From NCBI GenBank assembly GCA_030833145.1, contig JAURHT010000126.1, forward strand, positions 1 to 5,400: a stretch of DNA of 5,400 bases. Reading direction: 5' to 3'. This stretch comes from Aquirufa sp. Its GTDB lineage: Bacteria; Bacteroidota; Bacteroidia; Cytophagales; Spirosomataceae. The translations under genes were made by a program, and so were the position numbers. A model generated the notes under the pieces. The model saw nothing but the letters and a program-made list of their open reading frames with translations, was not told the DNA's origin and ran no database searches. Position 1 is the first letter of the stretch. Each line of letters opens with the position of its first letter. Of the stretch, positions 1-5,400 are shown one piece after another.

Positions 1-2315
1 ACATCTTTCGTGATGTCCACGTATTCTTTCCACATCGCTTTTTGGTCCGTAATATTTTTCTTTAAACGCGCTTCACCAGACGCTGGGCTCAAGAAACGTT
101 CGATGTATTTGTATTTTACATCATCCTGCGTGAATTTTTGCTGGAATTTCTTGCTGTGGAAAATCATATCCGTGCTATCCACATAGTCCATCCAGAACGG
201 AATCCAGGCTTTTAATCTAGCTTGGTGCGTTAACACATCTTCGTACAAAAGACCCGCTTTATTCGATTTAGCGAAAGAAGGAACGAGTTGTCCCATCGTC
301 GTTTTCAACGAGAATTTTCCCTCATCTTGCCATTTCATCAAGGCAGGAACGGAAGTTGAAATCTTGGTAATAGAAGCTAAATCGAAGATATCGGAAGTCT
401 TTAATGGAACAGTCGTTTCATAGATCTGGTTGCCAAAAGCTTTGTGGTAAATGACCTTCCCTTCTTTGGCAATCAACACCACTACGCCTGGAGCGCCCTT
501 CACCGCGATCGCTAATTTCGCCATCGAATCCACTTTCGCATTCAAATACGCAGACGAAATTCCCACCGCTTCCGGAAGCAAATTGTATTGTAAACGCGCT
601 AAGGAAGTGGTCGTTACACCCATCCCTTGCTTGTAGTCCGCATTCAAACTTACCGGCAATTTCCCGGTCGCTGGAATCGCTCCAAATACAATCTCTGCCG
701 CCGCTTCTTGCTGCGAAATTCCATCTTGATAAGCCGCCATTACTGCCCCAGCATTCTTCAAACTGTCAAATTGTGTCAGGGTATTCACGTTCGCAAAGTG
801 AATCGCCACCGTTTTAGGCGTGGCAAAACGGTTCACTAAGGTCTTAATCGCGGGCTTCAAACTATAATTATTCGCAGGGCGAATCGAAATGCTGTGAATC
901 CCCATCAACACCACATCGTAGTTTTTCAAGGTAGTTTCAATACGTGCAATCGTGGTATCCGCGCTCGTCTCATCCAGGTAAAAATGCGGCATTTCGACGT
1001 AGTTATTGGCCATTTTTTGGAACTCCGTAGGGAATGCGGACCCGTAGGATGGCTTGCCAATCGCAAGTGTCGCAATGCGCGTTTTGTCCAACGCTTTAAT
1101 AGGTACTAAGTCGCTTGGATTCTTAATTAACGTGATCGTTTTCTCAGCTAATTCGCGGTTCAACACTTCACTTTTCAGCGGATTCAAATCCTTGATTAAA
1201 TTCTCCACGACGATGGGTTCGTAGTGGGCAAGTCCCGCCCAGGCTTTGGCATTCAATATACGCTTCACCCGGCTATCGATATCCTCTTGCGTGATTTCTT
1301 TGTTATCTAAGGCCTTTTTGATAGCATTAAATGCCGCCGGGACGTCCACAAAAGTTTCTAAAATATCATTTCCCGCCAGGATCGCCTTCACGTTTGCTGT
1401 GCCTTCTGGGAACATCTTCGTCGCCCCTTTCATATCCATCGCATCCGTAAACACGAGACCCTGAAACTTCATTTCATCGCGCAACAAACCCGTTACAATC
1501 GGTTTAGAAAGCGTGGATGCTAAAGACGCGGTCGTATCCAATGCCGGCAGGTTCAAGTGACCCACCATCACCCCTTGCAAACCATTCGAAATCAATTCTT
1601 TGTAAGGATATAATTCCAAACTATCCAAGCGTGAACGCGAGTGGTTCAACACCGGAATATCCAAATGCGAATCCACTCCTGTATCGCCGTGACCTGGAAA
1701 ATGTTTCGCAGAAGTAATGATTCCCGCTTTTTGAAGTCCTTTCATATAGGCCAAAGCCTTCGCCGTCACATCCTCCCGATTCTCCCCAAACGAACGGAAA
1801 TTAATCACCGGATTCAACGGATTATTGTTCACATCCACCACCGGCGCATAATTAATGTGCACGCCCATTCTCCGGCATTGCTCCCCTATTTGGACACCCA
1901 TCTTCTCGATCAAAGCCGTATTTCCTTGCATCGCGCCTAAGGTCATTTGGTATGGAAAACGGAACGTCGAATCCAATCGCATCGCCAGACCCCACTCTAA
2001 ATCCATCCCAATAAACAGAGGAACCTTCGTTCTACTTTGCAATTCATTCACTAAGACCGCCTGCTTCACCGGATGTCCTTTAAATAGAACAAAGCCTCCC
2101 ACGTGGTAGTCTTTTACAATCGAATACAAACGCGTCGTATCGTAAGTGTCCGCCACATTTCCACGGGGCATCAACAATTGACCGATCTTCTCGTCTACAC
2201 TCAAGGAATTGAAAACGGAATCCACCCATTTTTGCTGGGTATGCGGGAACAAATCCTGTGAAAAGGCCTGGAAACTTAAAAGGAAAAGCAGTAATCCGGT
2301 GCTGATTTTTTTCAT
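1..2315 (-). CDS. GH3 beta-N-acetylglucosaminidase (NagZ-like) fused to a beta-lactamase-fold serine hydrolase, C-terminus cut by window edge
   Basis: The frame runs 771 codons without a stop and leaves the window, so the C-terminus is missing. Residues 1-19 look like a Sec signal peptide (MKK, a leucine-rich core, then AFS before Gln20), so the product is probably exported. Residues about 35-360 are a GH3 catalytic domain: APVVDVNNNPLNPV (157-170), RSFGE (174-178), the NagZ loop KHFPGHGDTGVDSH (204-217, His217 the likely acid/base) and FTDAMDMKG (289-297, Asp291 the likely nucleophile). Residues about 385-560 resemble the GH3 C-terminal domain. From about 590 a class C beta-lactamase-type domain begins, with SxxK as SITK (Ser648, Lys651); its YxN and KTG-type motifs should lie outside the window. 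In Bacillus subtilis, separate NagZ and AmiE act in turn on muropeptides; this fusion may combine both steps, which is inference. An in-frame ATG six codons upstream (2333) is possible, but MKK gives a more typical signal peptide. Confidence 0.9.
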   Translation of the reverse strand, partial: MKKISTGLLLFLLSFQAFSQDLFPHTQQKWVDSVFNSLSVDEKIGQLLMPRGNVADTYDTTRLYSIVKDYHVGGFVLFKGHPVKQAVLVNELQSRTKVPLFIGMDLEWGLAMRLDSTFRFPYQMTLGAMQGNTALIEKMGVQIGEQCRRMGVHINYAPVVDVNNNPLNPVINFRSFGENREDVTAKALAYMKGLQKAGIITSAKHFPGHGDTGVDSHLDIPVLNHSRSRLDSLELYPYKELISNGLQGVMVGHLNLPALDTTASLASTLSKPIVTGLLRDEMKFQGLVFTDAMDMKGATKMFPEGTANVKAILAGNDILETFVDVPAAFNAIKKALDNKEITQEDIDSRVKRILNAKAWAGLAHYEPIVVENLIKDLNPLKSEVLNRELAEKTITLIKNPSDLVPIKALDKTRIATLAIGKPSYGSAFPTEFQKMANNYVEMPHFYLDETSADTTIARIETTLKNYDVVLMGIHSISIRPANNYSLKPAIKTLVNRFATPKTVAIHFANVNTLTQFDSLKNAGAVMAAYQDGISQQEAAAEIVFGAIPATGKLPVSLNADYKQGMGVTTTSLARLQYNLLPEAVGISSAYLNAKVDSMAKLAIAVKGAPGVVVLIAKEGKVIYHKAFGNQIYETTVPLKTSDIFDLASITKISTSVPALMKWQDEGKFSLKTTMGQLVPSFAKSNKAGLLYEDVLTHQARLKAWIPFWMDYVDSTDMIFHSKKFQQKFTQDDVKYKYIERFLSPASGEARLKKNITDQKAMWKEYVDITKD

Positions 2316-2450
2316 AGCAAGGTTAACATTCATATAAGGTGTGAAAATACGCTAAATGTGGGAATCTTCTGAAATATCCGGCCTAATTTTTCGTGCTAAT
2401 TTTCATTCCACGGAAAGCATTCGTAATTTTAGGACTTAAATGATGAACGT
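2316..2450. promoter_or_regulatory. Divergent intergenic region between the GH3 fusion gene and tpiA
   Basis: Both genes are transcribed outward from these 135 bases, so both promoters should lie here. On the plus strand the heptamer TAATTTT occurs three times (2384, 2397, 2424), each one base short of the Bacteroidota -7 consensus TAnnTTTG. The copy at 2424-2431 lies 19 bases after a TTTC that could be a weak -33 element, and is well placed for tpiA. On the minus strand only a poor match (TATTTTCA, just upstream of the GH3 start) is visible. No Shine-Dalgarno sequence precedes either start. No gene or strong hairpin is seen. Confidence 0.4.
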
Positions 2451-3212
2451 ATGAGAAAAAAAATTGTTGCAGGTAACTGGAAAATGAACAAAACGGCGCA
2501 AGAAGCATTCGTTTTGGCTACTGAAGTAGCAGAATTAGTGAAGTCTAGCGTTTCCGCGGATGTTCAAGTGATTATGTCGACACCGGCTTTGTATTTAACG
2601 GGTGTAAATCAAGTAATTGAAGGCATTCCAAATTTAGCCGTTGCAGCCCAAAACTGCCACGAAAAAGCCTCTGGCGCTTACACAGGAGAGATTTCTGCTC
2701 CCATGTTAGCTTCTGCCGGCGTACAATATGTCATCTTAGGACACTCAGAGCGTCGTCAATACTTCGCAGAATCAAACGAGCAATTAGCGGCTAAAACAGA
2801 CGCAGCTTTGGCAAACGGCTTAACGCCTTTATTCTGCTGTGGCGAAAGCTTAGAAACGCGCGAAGGCGCAGATTTCTTAGGCCACGTGGCTCAACAATTA
2901 ACAGAAAGCTTATTCCACCTTTCTGCAGAGGAATTCAGCAAAGTGGTCATCGCTTACGAACCCATCTGGGCGATTGGAACCGGTTTAACCGCTTCTTCAG
3001 ATCAAGCACAAGAAATGCATGCTTACTTACGTGCACATATCGCTAAGAAATATGGCCAAAGCGTAGCCGACAGCATCTCTATCTTATACGGTGGAAGCTG
3101 CAACGCGAAAAACGCGAAAGAATTATTCGCTTGCGCAGACGTAGATGGTGGTTTAATTGGTGGCGCATCTTTGGTTGCGGCTGATTTTATTACGATTGCG
3201 ACTTCTTATTAG
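2451..3212 (+). CDS. tpiA: Triosephosphate isomerase
   Basis: This 253-residue protein interconverts dihydroxyacetone phosphate and glyceraldehyde 3-phosphate in cytoplasmic glycolysis and gluconeogenesis. It has the normal family length and all key motifs: AGNWKMN (7-13) with substrate-binding Asn9 and Lys11; the electrophile His98 in ILGHSERR (95-102); the catalytic base Glu170 in AYEPIWAIGTG (168-178), which runs into mobile loop 6; and the phosphate-binding YGGS (213-216) and GG (237-238). Translation begins with MRKKIVAGNW, the usual N-terminus. Two other ATGs a few bases upstream (2440, 2443) are out of frame. No ribosome binding site is visible, as is usual in this phylum. The stop is followed at once by a short hairpin and then by the first composite repeat, which contains a terminator, so tpiA is probably transcribed alone. 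No essential residue is missing. Confidence 0.99.
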   Translation: MRKKIVAGNWKMNKTAQEAFVLATEVAELVKSSVSADVQVIMSTPALYLTGVNQVIEGIPNLAVAAQNCHEKASGAYTGEISAPMLASAGVQYVILGHSERRQYFAESNEQLAAKTDAALANGLTPLFCCGESLETREGADFLGHVAQQLTESLFHLSAEEFSKVVIAYEPIWAIGTGLTASSDQAQEMHAYLRAHIAKKYGQSVADSISILYGGSCNAKNAKELFACADVDGGLIGGASLVAADFITIATSY

Positions 3213-3234
3213 TAAAGCGGAGCTTTGCTCTTTA
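3213..3234 (+). repeat. Short hairpin immediately after the tpiA stop
   Basis: GAGC (3220-3223) and GCTC (3227-3230) pair around a TTT loop, and the flanking TAAA (3213-3216) and TTTA (3231-3234) pair outside a three-base bulge. The hairpin begins on the base after the tpiA stop codon and ends at the first heptamer of the composite repeat. There is no T-tract, so it is not a classical terminator; it may stabilise the 3' end of the transcript. Confidence 0.45.
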
Positions 3235-3265
3235 AAGCATAAAGAATAAAGCACAAAGAATAAAG
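3234..3265 (+). repeat. Tandem heptamer array, left arm of copy 1
   Basis: Four consecutive 7-base units (AAAGCAT, AAAGAAT, AAAGCAC, AAAGAAT) and a trailing AAAG. Every unit keeps AAAG and position 6 is always A. The array is complementary in several registers to the inverted array at 3358-3382. Confidence 0.85.
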
Positions 3266-3270
3266 ATGGT

Positions 3271-3298
3271 TAAAAATGGGGCTTCGGCCCCATTTTTA
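3271..3298. terminator. Bidirectional intrinsic terminator downstream of tpiA
   Basis: A 12-bp perfect stem runs from the A-run into GGGGC (3271-3282), then a TTCG loop (3283-3286), then GCCCC running into a T-run (3287-3298). The loop is closed by C-G, giving the very stable cUUCGg tetraloop. The A-run and T-run make it usable on both strands. It lies about 60 bases past the tpiA stop. Confidence 0.9.
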
Positions 3299-3306
3299 TG
3301 TTTGAG

Positions 3307-3329
3307 GAAATGTGGTACAAAAACATTTC
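3307..3329. repeat. GAAATGT/ACATTTC hairpin in copy 1
   Basis: A 7-bp stem (3307-3313 with 3323-3329) encloses a nine-base loop containing AAAA. It is followed by ATATAC. The same motif recurs at 4142-4165, again followed by ATAC, so it is a module of the composite repeat. Confidence 0.65.
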
Positions 3330-3335
3330 ATATAC

Positions 3336-3351
3336 GCGTCGCAGGCGACGC
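3336..3351. repeat. GC-rich hairpin in copy 1
   Basis: GCGTCGC (3336-3342) and GCGACGC (3345-3351) are perfect inverse complements around AG. In practice this is a 6-bp stem with a CAGG loop. The reverse complement of its core (TCGCCTGC) matches the start of the corresponding hairpin at 4120-4134 in copy 2. Confidence 0.65.
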
Positions 3352-3357
3352 TTCCTA

Positions 3358-3382
3358 CTTTATGCTTTATGCTTTGTGCTTT
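3358..3382 (-). repeat. Tandem heptamer array, right arm of copy 1
   Basis: Read on the minus strand this is AAAGCAC, AAAGCAT, AAAGCAT, AAAG, the same unit as the left arm in inverted orientation. One more degenerate heptamer, ATTATTT on the plus strand, follows at 3383-3389 and runs into the putative HAD promoter. Confidence 0.85.
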
Positions 3383-3396
3383 ATTATTTAAATTTG
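3366..3396 (+). promoter_or_regulatory. Putative promoter of the HAD gene, giving a nearly leaderless transcript
   Basis: TAAATTTG (3389-3396) is a full match to the Bacteroidota -7 element TAnnTTTG and ends four bases before the ATG at 3401. Transcription would then start at or very near the start codon. The -33 element is weak: TTTA at 3366-3369 has a 19-base spacer, while the perfect TTTG at 3373-3376 has only 12. Any -33 element would lie inside the heptamer array. Confidence 0.5.
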
Positions 3397-3400
3397 AATC

Positions 3401-4081
3401 ATGGAACACGTAATCGCATTCGACGCAGACGACACCCTTTGGGTGAATGAACCCTATTTTAGAGAGACAGAAGATAAATTCTGTGCACTCTTAGAAGACT
3501 ATTTACCCATCCACACCACCGGTCAAGAGTTGTTCAAAATCGAGATGAATAACCTCGCACTTTACGGTTATGGGGTCAAAGGATTTATGCTTTCCATGGT
3601 CGAAACGGCCATTCATGTTTCGGGCGGAACAATGGGCCTAGACGGAATCGAAAAGATTCTGAATCTAGGCAAAGAGTTACTCGAAAGAGATATCGAAATT
3701 CTTCCAGGAGTAGTAGAAGTTTTGCAATCCTTACAAGGCAAATACCGATTAGTCGTGGCCACCAAAGGTGACCTATTAGATCAACAACGCAAACTCGCTA
3801 AATCCGGCTTAGAACAATATTTCCACCACATCGAAATAATGTCGGATAAGCAGGAAAGCGATTATTTAAAGCTCATCAAACACCTCGATGTCGATCCAGC
3901 CCATTTCACGATGATTGGAAATTCATTGAAATCAGATATCCTTCCTGTCCTTGCGGTGGGCGGACACGGCATCCATGTTCCATACCACACGACTTGGGCA
4001 CACGAGGTGGTTTCCCACAAAGTGGAGCACAAGAATTTTAGAGAGGTGGAGGATTTACGATTAATTTTAAATTTCATTTAA
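3401..4081 (+). CDS. HAD-superfamily hydrolase (probable phosphatase)
   Basis: This 226-residue cytoplasmic protein is of typical size for a HAD phosphatase with a helical cap inserted after motif I. Motif I is FDADDTL (7-13) with nucleophile Asp8 and acid/base Asp10. The cap probably spans about 15-95. Motif II is VVATKGD (118-124) with Thr121. Lys150 (SDK) is the likely motif III lysine, though Lys157 is possible. Motif IV is IGNSLKSD (172-179), with Asp179 a likely Mg2+ ligand and Asn where many members have Asp. The substrate cannot be told from sequence; family members act on sugar phosphates, nucleotides or other phosphate esters. The start is fixed because the next Met (49) lies after motif I. 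The gene stands alone between the two composite repeats and converges on nfu. Its last nine codons form one arm of a 19-bp perfect palindrome that includes the stop. No close functional assignment is offered. Confidence 0.93.
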   Translation: MEHVIAFDADDTLWVNEPYFRETEDKFCALLEDYLPIHTTGQELFKIEMNNLALYGYGVKGFMLSMVETAIHVSGGTMGLDGIEKILNLGKELLERDIEILPGVVEVLQSLQGKYRLVVATKGDLLDQQRKLAKSGLEQYFHHIEIMSDKQESDYLKLIKHLDVDPAHFTMIGNSLKSDILPVLAVGGHGIHVPYHTTWAHEVVSHKVEHKNFREVEDLRLILNFI

Positions 4082-4094
4082 AATTAATCGTAAA
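4054..4094. repeat. 19-bp perfect inverted repeat overlapping the HAD stop codon
   Basis: Left arm 4054-4072 and right arm 4076-4094 are exact inverse complements around TTC. The left arm is coding sequence for the C-terminal residues, and the stop TAA (4079-4081) lies inside the right arm. The RNA would form a long A/U-rich hairpin at the 3' end of the mRNA. No T-tract follows; the heptamers of copy 2 begin two bases later. Confidence 0.9.
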
Positions 4095-4096
4095 GT

Positions 4097-4114
4097 AAAG
4101 CACAAAGAATAAAG
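4097..4114 (+). repeat. Tandem heptamer array, left arm of copy 2
   Basis: Two complete units (AAAGCAC, AAAGAAT) and a trailing AAAG. A degenerate AAAGT precedes them at 4092-4096. This is the shortest of the four arrays, so unit number varies from two to four. Confidence 0.8.
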
Positions 4115-4119
4115 GTGGC

Positions 4120-4134
4120 ATCGCCTGCGGCGAT
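4120..4134. repeat. GC-rich hairpin in copy 2
   Basis: ATCGCC (4120-4125) pairs with GGCGAT (4129-4134) around TGC. GGT at 4114-4116 and ACC at 4136-4138 can extend the stem past a small internal loop. It corresponds to the hairpin at 3336-3351. Confidence 0.65.
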
Positions 4135-4141
4135 AACCTTC

Positions 4142-4165
4142 ATGAAATGTTCAAAAGCATTTCAT
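4142..4165. repeat. ATGAAATG/CATTTCAT hairpin in copy 2
   Basis: An 8-bp perfect stem (4142-4149 with 4158-4165) encloses an eight-base loop. Followed by ATACC, it matches the copy 1 hairpin (3307-3329) best in direct rather than inverted orientation. Confidence 0.7.
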
Positions 4166-4170
4166 ATACC

Positions 4171-4202
4171 ATAAAAAATGGGGCCTCGGCCCCATTTTTT
4201 AT
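4171..4202. terminator. Bidirectional terminator between the convergent HAD and nfu genes
   Basis: A 14-bp perfect stem runs from ATAAAAAATGGGGC (4171-4184) to its exact inverse complement (4189-4202) around a CTCG loop. With A-runs on one side and T-runs on the other, it can end transcripts from both convergent genes. It lies about 90 bases past the HAD stop and about 75 bases past the nfu stop. Confidence 0.9.
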
Positions 4203-4207
4203 TCCAA

Positions 4208-4239
4208 CTTTATTCTTTATGCTTTGTGCTCTATTCTTT
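4208..4239 (-). repeat. Tandem heptamer array, right arm of copy 2
   Basis: Read on the minus strand it has four units plus AAAG, with one unit mutated to AGAGCAC. Its outer end overlaps the first two bases of the 22-bp palindrome at the nfu stop. Confidence 0.8.
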
Positions 4240-4282
4240 TAATTTTACCACAATCTCCTTAGGAGATTGTGGTAAAATTAAA
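4238..4282. repeat. 22-bp perfect inverted repeat overlapping the nfu stop codon
   Basis: Arms 4238-4259 and 4261-4282 are exact inverse complements around a single T, centred on CTCCTTAGGAG. The nfu stop (4278-4280, minus strand) lies in the right arm. The hairpin would be the first structure in the 3' untranslated RNA of nfu. No T-tract follows on either strand, so it is not a standard terminator by itself. Confidence 0.9.
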
Positions 4283-4871
4283 CCCCTTCCGCCACCACTT
4301 CCTTCACACCCGGAACCATACGCGTTAATAACGCTTCGATTCCCTGCTTTAAGGTCATGGTTGAAGATGGGCAGCCAGAGCAAGAACCTTGCAATAAAAC
4401 CTTTACTTGACCTGTTGCTTCGTCAAATGAGTGGAAGGTGATCGCGCCGCCATCGGATTCTACCGCTGGGCGAACGTATTCGTCTAGGGCTTGTTTGATT
4501 TGCTTGATGGCTGGTGTGTCGTTAGACTGATCGTCAGCGATCGTTGCTTCTGGCAAAGAGAAAACGGGTTGTTTCTCCTCGAAATACTTCTTTAAATAGG
4601 TCTTAATCCCGAATAACTCATCCTCCCATGCCACTGACTCGGATTTTGTCAAAGTGATGAAGTTGTTCGTGATGAAAACGCGGGATACGAAATCAAATCC
4701 AAAAAGAGCGACCGCTAGTGGCGAGTTTTTCTCCTTCGTTAATCCGTCCGCTGGTTGGGTGTAATCGAATGACATCCCTTCCGGAAGTAATTCCATATTG
4801 AAGACGAACTTCATGGAATGTGGATTAGGGGTCGATTCGGTATAAATATGGATAGTAGTCGAAGTGTTCAT
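4278..4871 (-). CDS. NifU-like (Nfu) iron-sulfur cluster carrier protein
   Basis: This 197-residue cytoplasmic protein is predicted to carry Fe-S clusters from the assembly scaffold to target enzymes. Residues about 7-95 form the Nfu N-terminal domain, recognised by YTESTPNPHSMKF (10-22) and FVSRVFITNNFITL (61-74). An acidic and Pro-containing linker follows (about 100-118). Residues about 120-193 are the NifU C-terminal domain: YVRPAVESDGGAI (132-144), then GSCSGCPSS (162-170), where Cys164 and Cys167 form the CxxC that binds a cluster, usually at a dimer interface. The length fits bacterial and mitochondrial NFU1-type proteins. An in-frame TAA seven codons upstream, with no ATG between, supports this start; Met20 would cut the conserved N-terminal motif. 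It appears to be a single gene with its own promoter just behind rpmA, convergent with the HAD gene. Its stop codon lies in a 22-bp palindrome. Confidence 0.96.
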   Translation of the reverse strand: MNTSTTIHIYTESTPNPHSMKFVFNMELLPEGMSFDYTQPADGLTKEKNSPLAVALFGFDFVSRVFITNNFITLTKSESVAWEDELFGIKTYLKKYFEEKQPVFSLPEATIADDQSNDTPAIKQIKQALDEYVRPAVESDGGAITFHSFDEATGQVKVLLQGSCSGCPSSTMTLKQGIEALLTRMVPGVKEVVAEGV

Positions 4872-4895
4872 GTGGGGGTATTTTAATATTTAGAA

Positions 4896-4930
4896 CAAAG
4901 GTACGGCCTATTTGGTTTCCAAAAAACAAA
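4896..4930 (-). promoter_or_regulatory. Putative nfu promoter
   Basis: On the minus strand TACCTTTG (4903-4896) fully matches the Bacteroidota -7 element TAnnTTTG. TTTG elements sit upstream at 4923-4920 (16-base spacer) and 4930-4927 (23-base spacer). The predicted start leaves a leader of roughly 20 bases before the ATG. Both -33 candidates fall in the T-tract of the rpmA terminator. Confidence 0.65.
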
Positions 4931-4956
4931 AAAACCCGGCATTTTCATGCCGGGTT
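4921..4956 (-). terminator. Intrinsic terminator of rpmA
   Basis: On the minus strand a 10-bp perfect stem (AACCCGGCAT and ATGCCGGGTT, positions 4956-4947 and 4942-4933) encloses a GAAA tetraloop. It is followed by a T-rich run, TTTTGTTTTTT (4931-4921). The stem begins 21 bases after the rpmA stop. Confidence 0.95.
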
Positions 4957-4977
4957 CTCTATGTCAAATAACGAAAA

Positions 4978-5400
4978 TTACTCAGCCTTAGCTGCTTTCT
5001 TCGCTGGTGCTTTTTTCTCTGCTGCTGGAGCTGCTGCTTTTTTCGCAGGAGCTTTCTTAGCTGGAGCCTCAGCTGCTGGAGCTGCTTCTACTGCTGTTTC
5101 TGCTACTGGAGCTGGAGCTGCTTTCTTAGCTGGAGCTTTCGCTGGTGCATCTGCAGGAGCTGCATCTGCTGAAATAGGTAATACGTGAACGAATGAACGT
5201 CCTTTGAAACCTTTTTGGAACTTAACAACACCATCAGCTAAAGCGAATAATGTGTGATCTTTTCCGATTCCTACGTTTAAGCCAGGATTGTGAGCTGTAC
5301 CACGTTGACGAACGATGATATTTCCTGCAATGATTGCTTGACCTCCAAATAACTTAACGCCTAATCGTTTTGAATGTGATTCGCGACCGTTTTTGGATGA
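4978..5400 (-). CDS. rpmA: 50S ribosomal protein L27 with long Ala/Lys/Pro C-terminal tail, N-terminus cut by window edge
   Basis: L27 sits at the peptidyl-transferase centre of the large ribosomal subunit. The visible 140 residues begin at [14 protein letters not shown], which in homologs follows about eight residues (MAHKKGVG type), so little is missing. The conserved core continues with [34 protein letters not shown] and [10 protein letters not shown], ending near visible residue 76. L27 proteins usually stop about there, at 85-90 residues. Here 64 more residues follow (4981-5172), made almost only of Ala, Lys, Pro and Glu with a few Asp, Val, Ser and Thr. The tail includes four copies of APAKKA and recalls histone H1-like or other basic low-complexity tails. 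The reading frame is open and conserved in style up to its stop, and a terminator follows. Whether the tail stays on the mature protein is unknown. The usual partner rplU (L21) would be expected off the right edge. Confidence 0.97.

Follow-up and report, generated by a model that had tools for sequence, protein, structure and literature searches.

The question raised by this locus is what kind of repeat occupies the gaps on either side of a HAD-like hydrolase gene in Aquirufa sp. The DNA analysed, hereafter the window, comprises 5,400 nucleotides (contig JAURHT010000126.1, positions 1 to 5,400), and of the genomes in the species collection that of Aquirufa antheringensis matches it best (HAD 97% identical). 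A sequence-only reading had described two inverted composite repeats around the HAD gene and suggested a dispersed family, possibly a non-autonomous mobile element or a 3′-end processing cassette. Its mention of Cytophagales agrees with the best genome match. We consider it likely that both repeats are S23-less forms of an insertion-element family, the full form of which consists of a 7-mer array, an S23/IVP gene and an array of the same 7-mer type in inverted orientation, and that the type found here, type A, has been amplified in this Aquirufa lineage, where genomes carry dozens of copies, mostly at gene 3′ ends. S23/IVP denotes PF05635, the open reading frame (ORF) of 23S rRNA intervening sequences (IVS). 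No S23 ORF is present inside copy 1 or copy 2, and they are therefore described here as derivatives of an S23/IVP element rather than as members of that class. The inverted arrangement of the arms, the arm consensus, the association with S23, the varied occupants of one slot, the 3′-end bias and the lineage restriction were all observed.

Two inverted copies of a dispersed cloverleaf

We use 'type A' for elements with AAAGNAY 7-mer arms around three hairpins, to which both window copies belong. Their parts, in window coordinates, are listed below with the evidence for each.

3234..3382, minus strand (reverse orientation relative to copy 2): type-A element copy 1, in the gap between tpiA and HAD; sequence, fold, BLAST family
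3234..3265, plus strand: copy 1 left 7-mer arm, units AAAGCAT, AAAGAAT, AAAGCAC and AAAGAAT, then AAAG; sequence, repeat listing
3271..3298, no strand: copy 1 hairpin P2, GGGGC-TTCG-GCCCC with A/T runs on either side, bidirectional terminator-like; fold
3307..3329, no strand: copy 1 hairpin P3, GAAATG...CATTTC, weakly conserved in the family; fold
3336..3351, no strand: copy 1 hairpin P4, GC-rich, GCGTCG-CAGG-CGACGC; fold, stem parsing
3358..3382, plus strand: copy 1 right 7-mer arm, same type as the left arm, inverted; sequence, fold
3401..4081, plus strand: HAD-like hydrolase gene between copies 1 and 2, a bystander
4097..4239, plus strand: type-A element copy 2, in the gap between the convergent HAD and nfu genes; repeat listing, alignment, fold
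4097..4118, plus strand: copy 2 left 7-mer arm; sequence, fold
4120..4134, no strand: copy 2 hairpin P4, ATCGCC-TGC-GGCGAT; fold
4142..4165, no strand: copy 2 hairpin P3, GAAATG...CATTTC; fold
4171..4202, no strand: copy 2 hairpin P2, 14-bp stem with A/T runs on both sides; repeat listing, fold
4204..4239, plus strand: copy 2 right 7-mer arm; sequence, fold

The sequence-only reading held that both gaps beside the HAD gene are built from the same parts, and that the reverse complement of copy 2 aligns with copy 1. This was borne out: 109 of 135 aligned bases are identical, and the alignment score of 92 compares with a maximum of 21 among 1000 first-order Markov shuffles. The predicted RNA fold has −57.0 kcal/mol for copy 1 (z −7.8) and −57.3 kcal/mol for copy 2 (z −9.4), and none of 200 shuffles was as stable for either copy. 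Each fold is a cloverleaf, in which a stem formed by the 7-mer arms (AAAGCAT, AAAGAAT and AAAGCAC units) encloses the three hairpins. As the order of the hairpins is opposite in the two copies, these are mutually inverted.

Type-A copies were counted by BLAST and their stems were parsed directly. We collected 24 distinct copies, 23 of which were aligned (L103 was left out) and 21 parsed (three without the P3 motif were dropped). RNAalifold predicted 27 pairs for the 23 aligned copies, and in 11 of these both partners vary. For P2, the 21 parsed copies yielded 18 distinct stems with a mean of 11.8 Watson-Crick pairs versus 4.2 in mononucleotide shuffles, figures that include four copies in which an evidently wrong stem was picked (L001:4689, L001:6913, L082:1496 and L169:16769). 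Many of these stems differ from each other merely by A/T extension; among the 17 sound picks, our own count gave nine different G+C cores, every one of them paired (GGGGC, GGGAC, GAGCGGC, GGGGCTG, TAGGGCTGA, GGGATCG, GGGGGATCA, TTGGC and GGGAACC). For P4 there were 14 distinct stems with a mean of 5.8 Watson-Crick pairs versus 3.7 in shuffles, the doubtful P4 of L103 being kept in counts and means. Since the differing P2 and P4 stems are each paired, stem sequence changes between copies while pairing is kept. The GAAATG/CATTTC hairpin, which the sequence-only reading had counted among the shared parts, is indeed present in both window copies, but across the family it is conserved less than any other part, with the GAAAT side found in 9 of the 21 parsed copies. 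P2 displays the features of a predicted intrinsic terminator, with A/T runs on both sides and thus on both strands in both copies, and the structural prediction suggests that the copies probably act as bidirectional terminators.

The proposal of a dispersed family proved right. BLAST with copy 1 returned 51, 36, 92, 65, 31, 24 and 108 matches in the close Aquirufa relatives G001 to G007, and none in five other genomes, G008 to G012. Genus-wide, 10 of 38 genomes gave at least 24 matches and the remaining 28 gave 0 or 1, in a search that scored at most 22 candidates per genome and returned some counts lower than the first. The closest relative of copy 1 among the matches listed is in G325 (94%). 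A second 7-mer type, CAAAGNNC repeated, followed a similar pattern, with 8–124 hits per genome in G001–G007, none in G008–G011 and three in G012; a reversed control of the pattern gave no hits.

Arrays of this periodicity are common in these genomes. Samples of 400 kb from G001 and 400 kb from G007 together had period-7 intergenic tracts in 26 of 265 gaps, while periods 5, 6, 8, 9 and 10 were found in 0 or 1 gap each per genome. By gap class, arrays were present in 11/46 convergent, 14/140 tandem and 1/79 divergent gaps, which amounts to 25/186 for convergent and tandem gaps together versus 1/79 for divergent ones. The idea of a 3′-end processing cassette is compatible with this bias and with the terminator-like stem. 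Besides type A and the types B and C described below, there are ATGGTRA and TAGTCRN arrays, as well as TTAGTC units that alternate with small variable-stem hairpins. The latter arrays were seen at G001:C2:190643-191099, G001:C2:215618-216003 and G007:C3:173021-173350 and in the flanks of the S23 loci L200–L203; the stems of their hairpins differ from unit to unit with self-complementarity kept.

S23/IVP genes between inverted 7-mer arms

In one gap of G007, two type-A elements surround a short ORF, and the counterpart in G001 has ATGGTRA arms only. This ORF encodes an S23/IVP protein (PF05635). The genomes G001–G007 contain 22 S23 genes in total, two to four per genome, and all 21 that could be scored are flanked by inverted arrays, with flank-to-flank inverted-repeat scores of 33–176 (19 loci were scored in the main run and L284 and L285 were added later; L189, whose flanks are partly N, has no such score). 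A score of at least 33 was reached by 6 of 650 ORFs from two sampled genomes, S23 genes possibly being among them. The 7-mer type varies among the Aquirufa S23 loci, and the left and right arms of one locus agree. Of the 19 loci scored, 12 are also positive in the period-7 test, and in the remaining seven the arms consist of TTAGTC hairpin units or of longer, composite ones. In three genomes, S23 genes of a single clade (84–100% identical) have a type-A element on either side:

G007:C3 176775-177509: S23 between two type-A elements
G003:C130 1339-2040: S23 between two type-A elements
G325:C30 3291-3994: S23 between two type-A elements, frame broken (broken S23 gene at 3511-3856)

The association extends well beyond Aquirufa, and S23 elements with 7-mer arms occur in more than one bacterial phylum. 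With an E-value limit of 0.001, 232 of 296 Bacteroidota genomes had an S23 match, 220 of them above the family cut-off, as did 28 plasmid records, mostly from cyanobacteria. We assembled 94 S23 loci, namely 19 from G001–G007, 9 from G009–G012, 50 high-scoring phylum-wide loci and 16 plasmid loci, with 435 ORFs from the HAD loci L008–L080 in other genomes of the phylum serving as control. Period-7/8 arrays were present in both flanks of 62/94 S23 loci versus 5/435 control ORFs (Fisher p 1.6e-50), and by group in 13/19, 5/9, 35/50 and 9/16 loci. At periods 5, 6, 9, 10 and 11, at most one locus per period was found in either Aquirufa group and none among the 50 phylum-wide loci; period 6 was found in 5/16 plasmid loci, and the 435 controls gave 1, 8, 11, 1 and 1 at these five periods. 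L206, where the wrong ORF had been picked, was left out of the Mantel, arm-format and 94-locus tests; L216, whose S23 frame has two stops, was never scored; L189 is in the Mantel and arm-format sets and outside the inverted-repeat scoring and the 94-locus test. A best arm period of 8 instead of 7 was noted at L229, L247, L255, L256, L257, L263, L266, L267, L282 and L283.

The two arms of a locus match each other in inverted orientation. For the 53 loci that have arrays in both flanks, the 5-mer cosine between the left arm and the inverted right arm averaged 0.51 within loci and 0.05 between loci, and the inverted fit exceeded the direct fit in 46 of them. Read on the strand leading into the element, the arms share a common format, NNNAGNN (A 0.85, G 0.78), which is the consensus over those 40 loci, out of 95, that had enough period-7 sequence. 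Arm type and S23 identity are correlated (Mantel r 0.345, 0/2000 permutations).

Whole genomes were compared through the first 20 kb (or less) of the first contig of 40 S23-rich (8–15 matches) and 40 S23-free Bacteroidota. There were 31 intergenic tracts of period 7 in 114 kb of non-ORF DNA from the former versus 2 in 90 kb from the latter, and at least one tract was found in 11/40 versus 2/40 stretches (Fisher p 0.013), in groups that also differ in phylogeny and lifestyle and with stretches that may themselves contain S23 genes. In the same stretches, period 8 was found 7 versus 0 times and the other periods (5, 6 and 9–12) 5 versus 3 times.

An S23 ORF inside a 23S rRNA gene was found in Azospirillum lipoferum 4B, with both arms made of 7-mers of one type (CAGAGGA, CGGATGA). 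This locus, L281, fails the automatic two-flank test, the picked start lying inside the left arm, but both arms are plain by reading. Judged by sequence, the classical 23S intervening sequence has the same build as the arm-S23-arm elements.

Gene-end slots and competing explanations

In the sister-species loci L008 and L009, the tpiA-HAD gap consists of a simple terminator alone, and the stop codons of HAD and nfu overlap. Absence from orthologous gaps in relatives, which the sequence-only reading had put forward as a mark of a mobile family, was thus found at both HAD-side gaps, and likewise at a third slot in G008 and G009. Since HAD is flanked by the same two neighbours in the element-free L008 and L009, its bracketing by two copies looks incidental. 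In L001–L007, the corresponding loci of the seven close relatives, both HAD-side gaps are filled with 7-mers of differing types: A (AAAGNAY), B (AAAGTTC, AAAGACC) and C (AGAGTAT, AGATTAT). Hybrid elements with unlike arms on the two sides are present at L004 and L001:6913. In the A. antheringensis HAD-nfu gap (L001:4866-6652), ORFs of 170 and 420 amino acids lie between two type-A elements, the outer of which is a hybrid of A and B arms.

That elements with type-A arms and S23 elements can stand in for one another at one kind of site is supported best, among single observations, by the slot at the 3′ end of xerD. This slot is empty in G008 and G009, it carries an S23 element with B arms in G001, G003 and G004, an S23-less pair of C arms in G002 and G006, and type-A arms with P4 but without the GC-rich P2 stem in G007; still other array types are present in G010 and G011, and no match was obtained for G005. 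Within one genus, a single orthologous site is thus seen unoccupied, with an S23 element, with an arm pair alone and with a type-A-armed element. At xerD of G001 (L211:412-1338), the reading frame enters the 7-mer arm, so that the last XerD residues are encoded by the repeat, and the XerD C-terminus is different in species with an empty slot.

Between G001 and G007, 114 gaps separating adjacent ortholog pairs were compared, nine of which had arrays by the 7-mer scan (six in both genomes and three in one). In the latter three gaps the other genome has TTAGTC hairpin arrays, which means that all nine occupied slots are common to both genomes. By reading, the repeat type at these slots was the same in two, partly shared in three and different in four. 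With 9/9 slots co-occupied and contents often unlike, the slots appear stable and their contents often exchanged. The comparison of orthologous gaps thus cuts both ways: the empty gaps of the sister species speak for a mobile family, whereas the co-occupied slots of G001 and G007 do not. Homologous exchange between strains can swap slot occupants, which leaves the first arrival of different types at one slot unaccounted for.

Direct evidence of insertion came from two Nostoc plasmids (L273 and L268) that share an operon in pieces 90.8–99.7% identical. The S23 unit precedes the gene of WP_104899637.1 in L273 and follows it in L268, the 7-mer type being particular to each unit, and neither plasmid is occupied at the site used in the other. 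Units in different gaps of one operon, with the reciprocal gaps empty, require insertion. At base level, one of these two sites, both of S23 units that are not type A, shows a possible 3-base ATG repeat and the other none.

These data allow the alternatives to be weighed. Structural RNA or terminator cassettes could have spread by homologous recombination and gene conversion without any mobility protein, with the 7-mers arising through polymerase slippage, an idea cited in the accessible part of PMC4692102. The 3′-end bias, the stems that change yet pair, the hybrid elements and the slots conserved between G001 and G007 would all suit such a process. However, slippage does not set the same 7-mer in inverted orientation around one gene family, nor does it make arrays track S23-rich genomes, and these two associations rule out generic slippage as a full account of the 7-mers; the Nostoc units, in addition, need insertion. 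We regard this explanation as unlikely. On an equal footing, and likewise improbable in our view, stands the idea that arm pairs came first, as hairpin hot spots, and that S23 genes are newcomers that settle between them. Known IVS do lie in helices of 23S rRNA, as far as the available part of PMC4990558 describes them, and type-A matches (24–108) outnumber S23 genes (2–4) in G001–G007; against this, S23 type and arm type go together at several sites, and the stretches of S23-free genomes are nearly without arrays.

Less probable still is a MITE (miniature inverted-repeat transposable element) or REPIN-like element moved in trans by an ordinary DDE or Y1 transposase, with the S23 gene as a passenger. 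Short inverted ends, many intergenic copies and absence in sister species would fit. Yet the ends are arrays of variable length rather than a fixed terminal repeat, several 7-mer types swap at one site, and the seven copy-rich genomes contain no Y1_Tnp match (DDE transposases were not searched for). RAYT genes (Y1_Tnp, PF01797) matched in 0/7 of the copy-rich G001–G007 and, of the 12 genomes, were present only in the copy-free G010–G012, and a RAYT/REPIN system was rejected for these genomes. The earlier suggestion of a non-autonomous element thus remains plausible, although not of the REP/RAYT kind, the association being with S23/IVP genes. Finally, a local duplication around the HAD gene, which the two copies within 1 kb might have suggested, is ruled out by the 24–108 matches per genome in seven genomes and has a negligible probability.

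Several observations weigh against a derivation of the window repeats from S23 elements, which we nevertheless prefer. Of the 94 S23 loci, 32 fail the periodicity test, some having shorter or differently built arms and some no visible arms (e.g. L199, L217 and L218), and the 50 phylum-wide loci in this count were the top-scoring matches and no random draw, with controls from other genomes. The fitted NNNAGNN score of 2.80 has a small lead over the best of 30 column shuffles (2.74), and some arm types lack the AG (e.g. ATGGTRA at L210). The correlation between S23 identity and arm type is equally expected from common descent alone. No jump of a type-A element to a new site was seen between the close relatives G001 and G007, where 9/9 slots are co-occupied. 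Seven of the ten type-A-rich genomes have no match at least 84% identical to the type-A S23, their S23 relatives being 62–68% identical in four and 41–44% in two, with none by that query in G334; several of the ten are, by title, incomplete metagenome-assembled genomes. To our knowledge, no catalytic activity of the S23 protein (S23p) has been described.

A possible mechanism, related systems and the rest of the window

If the window repeats derive from S23 elements, their spread might proceed as follows. The consensus over loci places AG about every seven bases on the strand reading into the element at both ends. A protein of the S23 family may form a ring that binds this track in DNA or RNA, and may treat any sequence between such arms as its own. 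Five chains were deposited for each of the solved S23 relatives 2gsc and 2rld, which would agree with a ring that binds a repetitive ligand, by analogy with TRAP. S23-less arm pairs would then be acted on in trans by S23p, being copied or exchanged at a limited number of gene-end slots and replacing the resident arm type; in this sense we infer that S23p drives the spread of type A. Once in place, the cloverleaf could serve, judging by its structure, as a bidirectional terminator at P2, and its long arm stem may offer a cleavage site for RNase III, as in rRNA intervening sequences. Termination together with RNase III cutting would make insertion between genes tolerable.

More tentatively, and with some doubt, S23 elements might constitute a widespread class of mobile elements without a transposase, in which a ring-forming Avd-like protein recognises inverted AG-every-7 arrays and moves or rewrites their content. 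Many unexplained bacterial heptamers (Calothrix, Nostoc, the TAACTGA of Beggiatoa, rRNA IVS) would then be arms or relics, and the window cloverleaves non-autonomous satellites. The strong association of S23 genes with heptamers observed here connects two puzzles so far treated separately, the role of the S23 ORF in rRNA intervening sequences and the over-representation of 7-base repeats in many bacteria. The part of PMC10053308 that was available sets PF05635 (2GSC) beside Avd (4DWL), an accessory protein of diversity-generating retroelements, as a probable homologue. Around 14 annotated plasmid S23 loci, none of the annotated neighbours is named as a reverse transcriptase (no search with a reverse transcriptase model was made). 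On cyanobacterial plasmids of two genera (L270 and L271), an S23 gene with inverted 7-mer arms lies between cas6 and cas4, and the 7-mers of the two differ (AAAAGCT and AGGTGAC types).

The closest known parallel is the IVS of 23S rRNA, where an S23/IVP ORF is located between terminal inverted repeats, a build shared by the S23 elements described here. The Coxiella IVS, in the accessible portion of PMC4990558, has an S23p ORF, a 28-bp terminal stem and GACAGAT heptamers before the ORF, the number of which varies between strains. The window copies resemble an IVS in their complementary terminal arms, which form a long stem, and in their 7-mer units, but they differ in that they lack an S23 ORF, are located between protein genes rather than in 23S rRNA, contain three hairpins and occur in dozens of copies.

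Heptamer repeats have been described before, as TAACTGA in Beggiatoaceae (PMC4679880) and as GGGAATC and GGGGA(C/T)T in Xanthomonas and Nostoc (PMC4692102, which also cites three heptamers in Calothrix PCC 7601), here and below according to the available parts of these papers. Like the window arms, they form intergenic 7-base arrays, sometimes in inverted pairs (one Xanthomonas genome has 70 of these), with their function left open; unlike the arm format found here, GGGAATC lacks the AG. Both papers cite an explanation of 7-base repeats by polymerase contact, and PMC4679880 considers an unknown repeat-binding protein as a possible mobile part. The term 'S23' has 0 occurrences in the main text of either. 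A link between S23 genes and flanking heptamer arrays outside rRNA was not found in the open-licence literature searched, to which subscription journals and preprints mostly do not belong.

REP/REPIN elements are short, palindromic, intergenic and presumed non-autonomous, and MITEs have inverted ends, no ORF and many copies. The window copies share with the former the short palindromic intergenic form and differ by their 7-mer array ends; with the latter they share inverted ends, the lack of an ORF and a multicopy state, the difference being that their ends vary in length and type.

The window itself contains genes for a GH3 enzyme (3-2333, minus strand), triosephosphate isomerase (tpiA, 2451-3212), the HAD-like hydrolase (3401-4081) and an Nfu/NifU protein (4278-4871, minus strand). 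Over window positions 3100–4400, Rfam listed 12 matches, all below the gathering score. Copy 2 is adjoined on both sides by perfect palindromes:

4054..4094, no strand: perfect palindrome with 19-bp arms, formed by the 3′ end of HAD with its stop codon and a mirrored half, immediately preceding the copy 2 left arm
4238..4282, no strand: perfect palindrome with 22-bp arms, between the copy 2 right arm and the nfu stop codon

In L003, the sequence of the HAD end is different and the mirror half of the palindrome has changed along with it, and in L002 the halves are mismatched; palindrome correction at the HAD 3′ end is possible. The GH3 enzyme has a beta-lactamase-like domain toward its C-terminal side (PF00933, PF01915 and PF00144).

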